Below are positions 30 through 35,655 of a stretch of DNA of 64,000 nucleotides, in pieces. The DNA lies in assembly GCA_937128505.1 (NCBI GenBank), contig CAKZMM010000176.1, positions 1 through 64,000 of the forward strand, given 5' to 3'. Every line of letters starts with the position of its first letter. Position 1 is the stretch's first letter. The translations under genes were made by a program, and so were the position numbers. The notes beneath the pieces were generated by a model. That model worked only from the letters and a program-made list of their open reading frames with translations, was not told where the DNA came from and searched no databases. This stretch comes from an uncultured Thermogutta sp. Its GTDB lineage: Bacteria > Planctomycetota > Planctomycetia > Pirellulales > Thermoguttaceae.

Positions 30-1181
30 ATGTTTTCCGATGCACGTTTCGCCTCTTCAATTTTTTTCGGCACCGGGGCGGATGTACCCAGTGGAATGGC
101 GGTCGTCCAAAAGTGGGTAGAGAGATTGGCCGCTGTGGCTAATTCTCTGGCGGGGGGTACATCGTCCGCGGAGCCCCAGGCAGTAGCCGAGCTGGTGAGC
201 CTCTTTTGGCGGATAAAACGAGTCGGCAGAGATTTCGTCGACGAGCTTGGCGCGAAAGCTCTGATTAAGAAGGCAGAGGGGATTTTGGGGCAGGTTTCGG
301 AGTCGCAACTTCGGGCCGTGATGGATGCGTTTTCGGCCGAGGTCTGGATCCGGCAGCTCGAGCGGTTGGCCGACTTGCATGAGGAATCCAATCGGGTAGA
401 TGCGGTTGCCCCGCTTGCCCAGAGTTTGTTGGAGGAGCTCGACCGGGTTGAGCTGATCGAGGTCGAGTTAGCCAAGCGTGGAATCGTGGAGGAGAATTGG
501 GCTTCTTCCATCGGCAGTTGTGTGACGGCTTTGCTTGAGAATCCTGACCTGTTTTGGGTCGTGGGTACTTGGGTGAAAGGGGTTTGCGAGCTTATCGCGG
601 AGGACGTGGAGGATTCCGATCCGGAATTGGCCTGCACGACGATCAAATTCCACGAAATCGTGGCGAGTATACAGGCCGAAGCGGAGGCAATTGCGCGCGA
701 ACGGGCGGGAAGTTTCACTGCTGAGCAATTGCGGATGATTTACGAGGCGGCCACCCGGGCCGGCTTGCCGCGGGGTTCAACAAAACCGGCGGACGGTGTG
801 GGCTCGTCCGTGGAGCCCTCGAGGCCCGATTGGTGGCTCCCACCGGTGAGCAGCCCCGTGGTGGCAGCCGCGGCCTCGGAAGTCTCGCCCCGGTATTTAC
901 CGCCGTTGAAATGGCGGTCGCCGTTGGGGGATTATGAAGCCCGGTTGATCATGCCAGAAAGGCCTCTGCATGGAGAGGAGGAAGCGGTACATGTGACGTT
1001 TTACAATTCAGCGAATAAACCGGCTGAAATGTTGACCGGCGCGGAGGTGGAACTGGCAGGATGCTCCGGCCGGATCGATTCGGAAGGAAAGGCTGCATTC
1101 AAATTGGGCGAATTGCGGGCCAAGGGGAAGCCTCCGGAGTTGCTGGTAAAGGGGATCGCGTGGACTGTGCTCAATCCTTGA
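30..1181 (+). CDS. Unrecognised protein coupled to a Lon-CARF-like protease; possible partner or substrate
   Basis: 383 aa. The start is supported by AGGAAGG seven bases upstream of the ATG. I do not recognise the family. Residues 1 to about 240 look mainly alpha-helical, with charged amphipathic stretches and no signal peptide or membrane segment. Residues about 245-295 form a Pro/Ser/Ala-rich, probably flexible linker. The last ~85 residues look like a small beta-sandwich of the kind that follows a 'G-x-I-D-S-E-G-K-A-A-F' turn, reminiscent of carboxypeptidase-regulatory-like folds. The stop codon overlaps the ATG of the next gene by one base (TGATG), so the two products are probably made in a fixed ratio and act together. 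By analogy with CalpL/CalpT, where a Lon-type protease cleaves a partner protein, this could be the cleavage target, with the linker as the cut region. That is inference from context only. Confidence 0.75.
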   Translation: MFSDARFASSIFFGTGADVPSGMAVVQKWVERLAAVANSLAGGTSSAEPQAVAELVSLFWRIKRVGRDFVDELGAKALIKKAEGILGQVSESQLRAVMDAFSAEVWIRQLERLADLHEESNRVDAVAPLAQSLLEELDRVELIEVELAKRGIVEENWASSIGSCVTALLENPDLFWVVGTWVKGVCELIAEDVEDSDPELACTTIKFHEIVASIQAEAEAIARERAGSFTAEQLRMIYEAATRAGLPRGSTKPADGVGSSVEPSRPDWWLPPVSSPVVAAAASEVSPRYLPPLKWRSPLGDYEARLIMPERPLHGEEEAVHVTFYNSANKPAEMLTGAEVELAGCSGRIDSEGKAAFKLGELRAKGKPPELLVKGIAWTVLNP

Positions 1182-2602
1182 TGGTGCGAAAGGTGCGACC
1201 GCTGCGGGCCGAGATGTTGCGGGTATTTCACGGACGCTGCGAGTCCCCGCGGTGCATGAGTGAATTGGCTTGTCTATTGGGCTGGCTTGCGCCTTGGTGG
1301 ATGACCGAGCAAGCACGGCGCGTTGCGGTAGGGGATGAGCCGTGGCGTTCGCGGCCGGAGCACAGCCGGTGGTTGCTTACCCGTCCTTCGATTCCTTCCG
1401 CGAGTGGAAGTTGTTGGTTGGTGGCCGGTCAATGCGCGGAATTCGATTTTCTTGAACCGGCTTTGGTTATTCCCTTGCGGTGGCGACTGGGCACGGGTCA
1501 TTCGCCGGAACTGCCAGCGACTCTTCGGGAACTGGCTGATGAAGTTCTTGGGGAGTTCAACACCTCGGATCGTTTCAGCACGACCGCCCCTTGGGGGTTA
1601 GGGTTTCCGGAGGGTTGTGAGGGGGTTGATTTGAGTGAATTGGAATTGGAGGTCGCCTCGGGGAAAGCGGCGCTTGTCGGCGGGCTTTTCCTCGCGCACT
1701 GGGATGTTCATGCGAACGTGGCAGTGGGAATATCCGCAACTTGGGGAGAGGGCCGCGATCATAATCGGGTCGGCTTTTTGGAAGCGAAACTTCTGGAAGC
1801 GCAGCGGTTTGGTTGTCGGGTTTTCTTCGTTCCGGAGGGGAGTGCGAACGAAGCAAAGCGTTTTCGCGACCAATGGGGATGGAATCTGGAGATTGCCGGT
1901 TTGGAGCTAGGGCCTTTGACGGGGAGAATCGATCGATCTGCCCTCGAAAGGGTCCTTGGACCTTACCTTGAAAAGCTGGATTTGCCGCCGGCAGCGGCCG
2001 TTGGGGCAATTACCCCCTCGGAACAGCGATGGTACATCCGGCAGGCGCGGCGGAATGAGTCGGTGGCCCGACGGTACTATCAAAAGTGCTTTTTGAAGCG
2101 GATTGTCGCGGGTTATCGGGAGCAAGTTTTGGCGGAACTTGGCCGGCAGGCAGATACGGTACCGACTCACCTAGTGAGCGTGCTGAGCAATAACTGGGAA
2201 CTGATTCCGTTGGTGGCCGCAAGCCACCGGGTAAAGAGGTGCTTGGTCTTTCGCGATCGGAAGCAGTTCGGTGGGCAACAAGATTTAGAAGCGGAGATTC
2301 AGGGGATTCTGGGTGACCTATATGACTCGGAGCCGATTCCGGAGGTGATTTGGGCGGATTTCGATTGGAATACTGGGAGCCAAGATTGGGAGGACCAATG
2401 GCGGAAAGAGGGATACGAGTTTTTGAAGGGGGTGCCGCCAGGTGGGGCACTCATCGATGTGACGCCGGGCAAAAAAGAGATGTCGTTTCTCTTGGCCTTT
2501 CGGGTGGCGCGGCCTGGGGATTGGCTCCATTATGTGCGTCATGAGCAAGAGGCTCGGGTGGTGGTGCCCGGGACGGAAAAATCCGTCTATTGGAAGCGTT
2601 AA
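1181..2602 (+). CDS. Lon-like Ser/Lys protease fused to a C-terminal CARF-like nucleotide-sensor domain
   Basis: 473 aa from the ATG at 1181, which overlaps the previous stop. An upstream in-frame start at 1061 would run 120 bases inside the neighbour and is less likely. Residues about 150-215 match the Lon proteolytic core. Ser160 (V-A-S-G-K-A-A-L) is followed exactly 43 residues later by Lys203 in G-F-L-E-A-K-L-L-E-A, the same spacing as Ser679/Lys722 of E. coli Lon, and then by the typical hydrophobic strand ending in V-P-E-G. There is no AAA+ ATPase module. Residues about 330-473 resemble a CARF Rossmann fold of the Card1/DUF1887 kind: an opening strand H-L-V-S-V-L-S-N-N (from 330) and D-V-T-P-G-K-K-E-M (426-434), like the D-x-T-G-G-T-K-x-M loop that contacts cyclic oligoadenylate. 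I infer a ligand-activated protease analogous to CalpL, which uses a SAVED sensor. No cas gene is visible in the window. The protease part is fairly strong, the CARF part moderate. Confidence 0.72.
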   Translation: MVRKVRPLRAEMLRVFHGRCESPRCMSELACLLGWLAPWWMTEQARRVAVGDEPWRSRPEHSRWLLTRPSIPSASGSCWLVAGQCAEFDFLEPALVIPLRWRLGTGHSPELPATLRELADEVLGEFNTSDRFSTTAPWGLGFPEGCEGVDLSELELEVASGKAALVGGLFLAHWDVHANVAVGISATWGEGRDHNRVGFLEAKLLEAQRFGCRVFFVPEGSANEAKRFRDQWGWNLEIAGLELGPLTGRIDRSALERVLGPYLEKLDLPPAAAVGAITPSEQRWYIRQARRNESVARRYYQKCFLKRIVAGYREQVLAELGRQADTVPTHLVSVLSNNWELIPLVAASHRVKRCLVFRDRKQFGGQQDLEAEIQGILGDLYDSEPIPEVIWADFDWNTGSQDWEDQWRKEGYEFLKGVPPGGALIDVTPGKKEMSFLLAFRVARPGDWLHYVRHEQEARVVVPGTEKSVYWKR

Positions 2603-10565: not shown

Positions 10566-10718
10566 TTGGAAAAGAACTTCAATGGAGGCAAGAGTTCGGT
10601 GGAGGCAAGAATTCAGTGAGGGCAAGAATTGAGTGAGGGAAAGAATTCAGTGACGGAAAGAATTCAGTGAGGGAAAGAATTCAAAGAAGGCAAGAGCTCA
10701 GTGAAGGAAAGAACTGAG
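10566..10718 (+). repeat. 17-bp tandem repeat, nine copies, directly upstream of moeA
   Basis: Nine head-to-tail 17-bp units with consensus tgagggaaagaattcag. The central copies differ at one to three positions and the outer ones are more degenerate. The array ends 19 bases before the moeA ATG. Seventeen is not a multiple of three, so the array is not coding. The units are purine-rich on this strand and contain Shine-Dalgarno-like GGAAAG or AAGGAAAG, which could influence moeA translation; that is inference. Confidence 0.9.
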
Positions 10719-10737: not shown

Positions 10738-11964
10738 ATGAGTTTGCCGTCGGCCATGCAACCATTTCTGAGTCGGCGCACGGTGGCGGAGGCTTGGAGC
10801 TGGATCGATTCCCATGCTTCGTGGTTACCGGCGGAGTGGGTACCGATAGATGGGTCTGCGGGGAGGGTGTTGGCTGGCGAGGTCATTAGCCCGGTGGCGG
10901 TGCCGGGCTTTGTGCGGGCCATGATGGATGGGTATGCCGTGCGGGCCGCGGATACTGAAGGGGCCTCGGCGTATAATCGATTGCCCCTGCGGTTAGTGGG
11001 GGAGGTTCGTCCGGGGCAAGCTCCGACGGTGTCAGTCGGCCCGCAGGAAGCCGTGCGCATTGCCACCGGTGCCCCGCTTCCGCCGGGGGCAGACGCGGTG
11101 CTGCCGGTGGAATGGGCGGCGGAATTCGCTGAATATCTCGAGGCAATGGCGACCGTGACGCCGGGAAGGCACACCAGTCCGGTGGGCGAGGATATTTCGG
11201 CGGGGCAAATCCTTTTCCAGCGTGGGCGGCGGTTGAGACCGCAAGACCTGGGCGTATTGGCCTCCGTGGGGATTGGTCAACTGAGCGTGGTGCGGCGGCC
11301 GACGGTGAGGATCCTCGTAACCGGGGATGAGCTTTTGCCGGCAGGCTCGCGGCCGGAAGGCTACCGGATTGTCGATGCCAATGGGGTAATGCTCGCGGCC
11401 TTGGTGGAGCGGGACGGTGGTCTGATCATCGATCGGCGTCTGATTCCCGATGATCCTGCCGTCGTATGGGAGGCGATGCGGCAGCCGGCGGATGTGGTGT
11501 TGATCTCCGGCGGTTCGAGCGTGGGACATTTAGATTATGCGCCGCGACTGCTCCGCGAGCACGGCGAGCTTGCCATTCATGGGGTAGCCATGCGGCCCAG
11601 CAGCCCGGCGGGGATGGGCCGGTTGGACGGTCGATTTGTGTTTCTTTTGCCGGGGAATCCGGTCTCGTGCTTGTGCGCTTACGATTTTTTTGCAGGCCGG
11701 GCCATTCGACTCCTGGGCGGCCGATCGGCCGCATGGCCTTATCGATCCATCCGCGGGGTGCTTGCGCGAAAGCTGAGCTCGGTCATCGGCCGGGTGGATT
11801 ACGCGCGGGTGCGGATCACGCCGCAAGGAATAGAACCGGTGGCAATCTCCGGGGCATCGCTTCTGAGTTCGACGACCGTGGCCGACGGCTTCGTGGTCAT
11901 CGAAGCGGATAGCGAGGGCTATCCGGAGGGAAGCGAGGTAGAGGTTTTCCTTTACGATATCTAG
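10738..11964 (+). CDS. moeA: Molybdopterin molybdenumtransferase (MoeA), first copy
   Basis: 408 aa, the usual MoeA length. MoeA inserts molybdate (or tungstate) into adenylylated molybdopterin in the last step of molybdenum cofactor synthesis. Visible family motifs: M-D-G-Y-A-V-R-A near residue 62, R-I-A-T-G-A-P-L-P, V-T-G-D-E-L, I-S-G-G-S-S-V-G in the MoCF domain, and L-P-G-N-P-V-S near residue 305. The segment usually reading 'x-K-P-G-K-P' is R-P-S-S-P-A-G here, a deviation near the active cleft. The stop codon lies inside the first unit of a 16-bp tandem repeat that fills the gap to a second moeA. Cytoplasmic. Confidence 0.93.
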   Translation: MSLPSAMQPFLSRRTVAEAWSWIDSHASWLPAEWVPIDGSAGRVLAGEVISPVAVPGFVRAMMDGYAVRAADTEGASAYNRLPLRLVGEVRPGQAPTVSVGPQEAVRIATGAPLPPGADAVLPVEWAAEFAEYLEAMATVTPGRHTSPVGEDISAGQILFQRGRRLRPQDLGVLASVGIGQLSVVRRPTVRILVTGDELLPAGSRPEGYRIVDANGVMLAALVERDGGLIIDRRLIPDDPAVVWEAMRQPADVVLISGGSSVGHLDYAPRLLREHGELAIHGVAMRPSSPAGMGRLDGRFVFLLPGNPVSCLCAYDFFAGRAIRLLGGRSAAWPYRSIRGVLARKLSSVIGRVDYARVRITPQGIEPVAISGASLLSSTTVADGFVVIEADSEGYPEGSEVEVFLYDI

Positions 11965-12199
11965 GGCGTATGACACGCAGGGCGTATGGGAGTAGATCTT
12001 ATGTGAGTAGACCGTATGACTTGTAGGGCATATGACGTCTAGGGCGTATCACCTGTAGGCCGTATGACAGTAGACCGTATCACCTGTAGGCGTTATCACA
12101 TGTACATCGTCTCAAATGCACACCGTATGTCGTGTAGGCCGTACGACATGTACACCGTGTCGCATGGAGACCGTATGACTTGTGGGCCGTGTGGGGAAG
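11963..12199 (+). repeat. 16-bp degenerate tandem repeat filling the gap between two moeA genes
   Basis: Fifteen consecutive units of 15-16 bp with consensus agrccgtatgacatgt (r = a or g). The first unit begins inside the stop codon of the first moeA, and the last ends about 30 bases before the second start. The four 15-bp-class units lack one base at the same end. The core CGTATGAC is kept in many copies. The array occupies nearly the whole intergenic region, leaving little room for any other element. Confidence 0.9.
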
Positions 12200-35513: not shown

Positions 35514-35655
35514 CTTTGGACACAGCTTTGGGATAAAGCCTTTGGACAAACTTTTTGGCTAAACCCTTTGGCTAAAGCTTTTGAACAAAGCTTTTGCCTA
35601 ATGCTTTCGGATAAAGCTTTTGGACGAAGCTTTTGGAGAAAACTCTTGGGCAACC
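35514..35655 (+). repeat. 13-bp degenerate tandem repeat
   Basis: About eleven units, most of them 13 bp with a consensus close to ttttggataaagc, laid end to end in the spacer between the secreted protein and the aldose epimerase. The outer units are 12 and 14 bp. Individual copies differ at one to four positions. AAGCTTTTGG is the most frequent core. There is no supported reading frame across the array. Confidence 0.88.

Follow-up and report, generated by a model that had tools for sequence, protein, structure and literature searches.

What does a protease that carries a CRISPR signal sensor cut, and what would follow from the cut? The question is raised by a gene found at the very edge of a contig from an uncultured Thermogutta sp. 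(GenBank assembly GCA_937128505.1, 5.58 Mb in 198 contigs). We have analyzed the first 64,000 nucleotides of contig CAKZMM010000176.1 (C176 below), a stretch that begins at base 1 of the contig and that we call the window. It contains an intact open reading frame (ORF) at 1181-2602 of the forward strand that profile comparisons show to code for a Lon-type Ser/Lys protease at the N-terminus and, fused to it, a CARF sensor at the C-terminus (CARF-Lon). Directly upstream lies a gene, here named C, whose stop codon overlaps the CARF-Lon start by one base (TGATG). In most of the relatives, gene order shows the same pair at the end of an operon-like cassette: sigma factor (A), B, C and CARF-Lon. By analogy with CalpL/CalpT/CalpS, we regard it as probable that this is a CRISPR-signalled regulatory protease, a CARF-based counterpart in which CARF-Lon, activated by cyclic tetra-adenylate (cA4), would cut C and free a sigma factor. 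The features of the window involved are the following.

1181-2602, forward strand: CARF-Lon protease gene, 473 amino acids (aa), matched by PADLOC model PDLC01981 (E=1.8e-78, residues 24-472).
1652-1846, forward strand: Lon catalytic segment, residues 158-222, with the dyad in register with that of a solved Lon domain and kept in 19/19 homologues.
1658-1660 and 1787-1789, forward strand: codons of Ser160 and Lys203, inside the CARF-Lon ORF.
2159-2599, forward strand: CARF sensor core, residues 327-473, assigned as CARF by profile and by fold.
2456-2482, forward strand: DVTPGKKEM motif, residues 426-434, in the CARF sensor core.
30-1181, forward strand: partner gene C, 383 aa, candidate substrate and candidate anti-sigma factor.
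750-896, forward strand: Pro/Gly/Ser/Ala-rich stretch of C, residues 241-289 (limits by eye), candidate cleavage region.
897-1178, forward strand: conserved beta C-terminal domain of C, residues 290-383 (predicted local distance difference test score, pLDDT, 78-94 by block in a homologue).

The PADLOC model (CARF_m2--CARF_LON) was matched over positions 20-407 of its 408. Single-sequence scans of CARF-Lon with Pfam (E<=1) and NCBIfam gave no match, and on these scans it is therefore a divergent member; Pfam Lon_C matched one homologue (L033) weakly, at 0.098. Searching a collection of genome contigs with the window CARF-Lon as a single sequence recovered no relative; an alignment of five sequences recovered five loci, all on contigs already in our set. 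We used a family profile (A1) made from an alignment of 13 CARF-Lon homologues, the other 12 being 23-35% identical to the window protein. Ser160 and Lys203 are 43 residues apart in the ORF, the distance of the Ser-Lys dyad in E. coli Lon, as the initial annotation of this DNA had pointed out, and both were invariant in 13/13 sequences of A1 together with D426, T428, G430 and M434. In a wider set the dyad was kept throughout (19/19) and distant members varied in the motif (D426, T428 and G430 each 17/18, M434 14/18, counted over 18 and not 19 because one member is truncated there). The middle part of A1 matched the PDB sequence of Lon 1z0e (E=1.7e-5), and the hidden Markov model alignment to this solved domain placed the Ser/Lys pair on Ser/Lys with no gap between. 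The initial annotation had made its reading depend on a Lon match around these two residues, and such a match was found with the dyad in register. The AlphaFold model of CARF-Lon had a mean pLDDT of 62.6, and its Lon half, modelled at low confidence (segment at 35-83 by block), gave no match in the fold searches. An ATPase module would seem to be absent, Pfam being blank and the two recognised domains leaving little space.

The sensor half was identified by three approaches. The C-terminal part of A1 matched the PDB sequences of Csm6 (1.1e-7), Card1 (8.5e-5) and Can2 (8e-4). With the AlphaFold model, in which the CARF core had a pLDDT of 67-88 by block, Foldseek ranked Thermus thermophilus (Tth) Csm6 first (4.9e-6), and ten of the 16 matches at E<=0.001 were CARF proteins (Csm6, Cam1). 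VIA superposition gave Tth Csm6 a Z of 12.5, with a root-mean-square deviation of 3.7 over 178 residues; every one of rows 1-35 was a CARF protein or a ring nuclease (Z 12.5-7.5), with methyltransferases appearing from 6.8 down. The window protein has a Rossmann-like CARF fold with the D-x-T-x-G motif, and DVTPGKKEM was read in the translation at residues 426-434, just where it had been reported. One CARF core (327-473) closes the protein, and not the two fused CARF-like units of SAVED. The C-terminal CARF fold that had been proposed is thus borne out, and so is the parallel in domain order with CalpL, protease first and sensor last. The initial annotation was right about the identity of the Lon-CARF protein; it missed the upstream partner C and the sigma cassette of the relatives.

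The CARF-Lon fusion itself is already known, from the PADLOC model, whose match means that the fusion is therefore not new, and from PMC9704534, the available text of which treats CARF-Lon as a so far only predicted effector and speculates that it kills through cleavage of essential proteins or through proteolysis of a broad kind. Our literature search, outside whose scope the 2020 classification paper lies, returned no mention of a CARF-Lon partner C or sigma cassette, and neither a CARF-Lon partner nor a sigma factor is mentioned in the available parts of PMC9704534, PMC12669027, PMC11229360, PMC11417357, PMC12751052, PMC12409355 and PMC10028731. It is the partner gene and the sigma cassette of the relatives that shift the likely mechanism from killer protease to transcription switch.

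We collected 20 CARF-Lon loci, two in the window's genome, 13 from other members of the family and five from other families. In the family, 14 of 119 genomes have CARF-Lon. In an even sample of 392 genomes from the phylum A1 matched 82, of which seven were accepted as CARF-Lon (matches covering at least 259 of 466 positions); the others, short and limited to one half, were taken as housekeeping Lon or other CARF proteins, and one such case that we examined (L088) was a CARF-HEPN. A contig-edge fragment with the CARF-Lon end only (L038) was left out of the C and sigma counts and the window also out of the latter, giving 19 assessable loci for C and 18 for sigma. For the 20 loci, a selection of the neighbouring genes was scanned, and several contigs end nearby.

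In 14 of the 19 assessable loci (the window, L009, L026-L032, L034, L035, L083, L084 and L085) a same-strand C precedes CARF-Lon, with a spacing that goes from a 37-base overlap to a 604-base gap in the ten loci measured. In a leave-one-out test, with seven rows left out together with their close relatives, the C profile regained 14 of 15 aligned rows at E<=1.1e-6. The window C was regained at E=1.1e-26 by a profile made without it, and dropping its two nearest relatives too still gave 3.8e-14. Over what appears to be the identical phylum sample C was detected in six of 392 genomes, each time at the cassette and all with CARF-Lon; as those six were rows of the C profile, the informative part is that C was not found elsewhere. 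The seventh CARF-Lon genome of that sample is G214 (L086). By these profile comparisons C is a dedicated partner gene of CARF-Lon.

Further upstream, an extracytoplasmic function (ECF) sigma factor, A, was supported in 13 of the 18 assessable loci, spread over 10 genera and four families (L009, L026-L032, L034, L035 as a contig-edge fragment, L084, L085, and L086 by Pfam alone). Against the PDB the A profile matched only sigma factors down to E=0.49, the best being RpoE/SigE (2e-7) and SigK (1.1e-6). Single genes agreed with this: A of L032 matched Pfam Sigma70_r2 (9e-9) and a sigma70-ECF model above its cut-off (1.2e-11), and that of L086 Sigma70_r4_2 (1.3e-9). Leaving rows out, 10 of 12 were regained, the weakest being L084 (1.3e-4). 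Between A and C there is either B (about 260 aa, eight aligned) or, elsewhere, B2 (five aligned); in L086 another ORF occupies the place of B. Neither Pfam, NCBIfam, PADLOC nor the PDB gave a significant match for B, B2 had no match in NCBIfam (the only collection with which it was scanned), and the two have no detectable relation (hhalign probability 0.2%). Eight residues of B are invariant in 8/8 sequences (W39, H41, H46, W54, T145, W162, Y173 and W213, for example in L091:4961-5725), and B is a possible nuclease or second effector. Upstream of A, three relatives of one genus have a sigma70-like box (T[GA]GACA-17-TAC[TC]AT, 9/12 consensus bases), picked after alignment without a shuffle control and in L028 tied with another site, a box that would ensure that the cassette is already there when infection begins; one pattern for an ECF-type promoter found none upstream of A in seven loci.

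The second CARF-Lon of the window's genome is on contig C99, the first 77 bases of which are the last 77 of contig C29, where A, B and C are the final genes. This suggests a second cassette in the order A-B-C-small ORF-CARF-Lon-Cas6. The small ORF, between C and CARF-Lon on C99 (L010:3-344), codes for a 113-aa glycine-zipper protein (5' open) with a zinc-ribbon-like end, all Pfam matches being below the cut-off.

The link with type III CRISPR signalling is indicated by both genome content and neighbouring genes. Cas10 (E<=0.001) was present in 12 of the 14 CARF-Lon genomes of the family versus 21 of the 105 others (15 of these above the Pfam cut-off), an enrichment (Fisher p=2.3e-6) that is indicative, the genomes compared being related. 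Overall, 17 of 19 CARF-Lon genomes have Cas10, and both Cas10 genes of the window's genome carry GGDD. Nine of the 20 loci showed a type III or ring-nuclease neighbour among the genes scanned (L010, L028, L029, L031, L036, L037, L083, L085 and L086). Cas6 comes after CARF-Lon in L010 and L028 (Pfam), and in L083:417-2150 (G257) its start appears to be fused in frame to the CARF-Lon C-terminus (PADLOC Cas6, 8e-8, residues 500-563). Cas10 or RAMP genes adjoin the cassette in L029, L083 and L085, and L086 has a Cas10 less than 4 kb away. For Crn2-type ring nucleases (PF08960) the distance to CARF-Lon is 4.6 kb in L031 and 8.4 kb in L029, while in L036 and L037 the end of CARF-Lon is overlapped by Csx3/Crn3. 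A single frame without interruption, L086:8947-11160 (G214), holds both CARF-Lon and a Crn2-type ring nuclease (PF08960, 1.4e-21), perhaps as a self-limiting protease. Both Crn2 and Crn3 cleave cA4, according to the available text of PMC12409355, and we favour cA4 as the ligand because these ring nucleases at CARF-Lon loci belong to cA4-cleaving families. CARF-Lon is probably switched on by a CRISPR alarm molecule.

The layout of C is that of a candidate substrate. The C protein of L091 was modelled (mean pLDDT 69.6) with a helical N-terminal domain (16-224), residues 223-269 and 280-297 mostly below 50, and a beta C-terminal domain at 78-94 by block. The Pro/Gly/Ser/Ala-rich stretch of the window C (55% of these four residues in 241-289, limits by eye, versus 30-34% on either side) lies in the region that aligns with this disordered linker. 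On the model of Csx30 of the type III-E system (see below), docking on CARF-Lon would fall to the conserved beta domain, and the sigma factor would be held by the helical domain, which varies more. H-x3-C-x2-C is present at residues 37-44 of the divergent L086 C, a motif for which 0.0006 occurrences are expected by the composition of that protein and which was spotted post hoc among many sequences. We take it to resemble that of zinc anti-sigma factors; Pfam gives it no support.

With these elements the proposed pathway can be described. Cas10 would make a cyclic oligoadenylate, most likely cA4, upon meeting phage RNA, and two CARF-Lon chains would share it through their paired single CARF domains, dimerisation being expected because there is one CARF per chain and other CARF proteins pair. 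Binding of the ligand would activate the Lon domains, which would then cut C, probably in the disordered linker or in the beta domain. C, normally holding the ECF sigma factor and perhaps B also, would let go, and the released A would drive a defence regulon. Ligand, proteolysis, substrate and sigma inhibition are thus predictions drawn from sequence, fold and gene order.

Several observations weigh against this proposal, beginning with the window itself. There are only 29 bases between the contig start and C, so that its own sigma and B genes are unseen, and its first bases are common to no other contig (14 matches, the best other one of 22 bases). The second cassette has its sigma gene split by an in-frame TGA (L009:6191-6193, on contig C29), and a further sigma gene of this genome is frameshifted (C36:12062-13130, L043); the latter, 0.7 kb from a contig end and 29% identical to the L026 sigma (E=2.6e-10), may or may not be part of the cassette in the window. 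No match to the B2 protein of L029 was found in the window's genome, nor was Crn2. Among the relatives, C of L087 was not regained when left out (E=0.3), and that of L086 was only weakly matched (0.0011). The sigma genes of L083 (0.55) and L087 were not regained either; they are recognised by position and by eye only and were counted as unproven. The profiles detect neither C nor sigma in L036 and L037, which have an ORF of similar layout seen by eye only. In the same genus as the window, L033:9319-10725 (G004) is a CARF-Lon alone, with no C, B or sigma detected around it, in a genome that does contain Cas10. Two of the 19 CARF-Lon genomes are without detected Cas10. On the sensor side, six of the 16 Foldseek matches were other folds (nicotianamine synthase, DOT1L, CysM), mostly methyltransferase-like. 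Finally, neither Pfam, NCBIfam and PADLOC nor the PDB sequences gave a significant match to C, and its fold searches were uninformative (Foldseek none at E<=0.001, VIA best Z 7.5 with generic helical bundles), so it is by gene order and analogy that C is called an anti-sigma factor. Among the matches listed there was no CalpT, Csx30 or anti-sigma factor, an absence that is not a test; these searches hardly probed the beta domain of C.

Within the window itself no cas genes are visible, and an Rfam scan gave no match. Degenerate short tandem repeats were found at 10571-10713 (periods 17/34/51), 11962-12190 (15-16/48) and 35515-35649 (13/39).

How else could these data be read? CARF-Lon might be a direct abortive-infection effector that degrades host or phage proteins broadly, leaving C as a mere chaperone or protease inhibitor. 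Many CARF effectors are indeed toxic enzymes, and L033 manages with CARF-Lon without C. The 2022 review, in its available text, also speculates that CARF-Lon cuts essential proteins or acts promiscuously (PMC9704534). However, C (14/19 loci) and an ECF sigma (13/18) accompany CARF-Lon and a broad killer would need neither, which makes this explanation unlikely in our opinion. In a variant that we consider somewhat more doubtful still, proteolysis would release a toxin: C would be an antitoxin holding B, its cleavage would free B, and the sigma factor would only regulate the operon. The position of B between sigma and C and its invariant His/His/Thr/Trp in 8/8 sequences, residues reminiscent of nuclease toxins of the barnase-EndoU-RelE type, are in agreement with this. 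But Pfam, PADLOC, NCBIfam and the PDB gave no significant match for B, and in other loci it is replaced by B2, without detectable relation to it, while the sigma factor is common to both types.

For the window's genome in particular, the copy might have decayed, with the sigma gene gone or broken and the function lost. Its cassette-type sigma genes are interrupted or frameshifted and the window copy is without a visible one, but CARF-Lon and C are intact there with the catalytic residues kept, the absent genes lie past the contig end, and errors of assembly could account for the breaks. We give decay very little credit. The regulatory protease that acts on C is the explanation that we prefer, and the conserved partner and sigma factor provide a concrete, testable substrate and output for CARF-Lon. 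If it is true, a virus alarm would alter gene expression through a freed transcription factor, and the CARF-Lon/C pair would be a compact protease and substrate under cyclic-nucleotide control. It would also mean that CRISPR control of sigma factors evolved more than once, with sensors and anti-sigma proteins that differ, and that type III immunity makes use of a transcriptional response again and again (SAVED-Lon, Csx29 and now CARF-Lon).

Compared with what is known, the protein itself does not differ from the CARF-Lon of PADLOC (PDLC01981), with the same domain order and a full-length match, or from the "CARF-Lon effectors" that the available text of the 2022 review discusses as bioinformatically predicted (PMC9704534). 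The closest solved CARF domain, that of Tth Csm6 (CARF-HEPN; 1.1e-7, Z 12.5), is N-terminal (chain residues to 187) and belongs to an RNase (endoribonuclease by PDB name), whereas in CARF-Lon the CARF is C-terminal and the effector is a protease. A functional parallel would be CalpL/CalpT/CalpS, a SAVED-Lon protease, an anti-sigma and an ECF sigma (mechanism in the available part of PMC11417357). Both systems have Lon first and a cyclic-oligoadenylate sensor last, here a predicted one, and both encode an ECF sigma and a further protein alongside. They differ in that CARF-Lon has one CARF domain in place of SAVED, and in that its cassette has the extra gene B and a C without significant PDB sequence match. 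Among the 48 PDB matches of A1 there was no entry named CalpL or SAVED (assuming that CalpL is in the copy of the database), which together with the lack of significant matches for C fits, though it does not prove, separate origins.

The type III-E Craspase/CASP system consists of Csx29, Csx30, Csx31 and CASP-sigma, and in it the C-terminal domain of Csx30 binds the protease, the cut is in a loop and the N-terminal domain binds sigma (PMC10028731, as far as the available text goes). The four-part logic is similar in the CARF-Lon cassette, with a protease, a two-domain candidate substrate (in the L091 C model, as in Csx30, a flexible linker joins the domains), one more conserved protein (B, an extra conserved gene as Csx31 is) and an ECF sigma. 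In contrast, the protease is Lon-type and not TPR-CHAT with Cas7-11, and the trigger would be a CARF ligand instead of a CRISPR RNA complex. B and C have no NCBIfam match and no significant PDB sequence match that would relate them to Csx30/Csx31, and the cassette sigma genes matched the NCBIfam III-E sigma model weakly (0.0014, 0.0072 and 0.13). On balance, we lean towards an independently evolved CRISPR pathway, running from signal to protease to anti-sigma to sigma across Planctomycetota, that would have reached the logic of CalpL/CalpT/CalpS and of type III-E with an unrelated substrate, C, and with B as a second arm.

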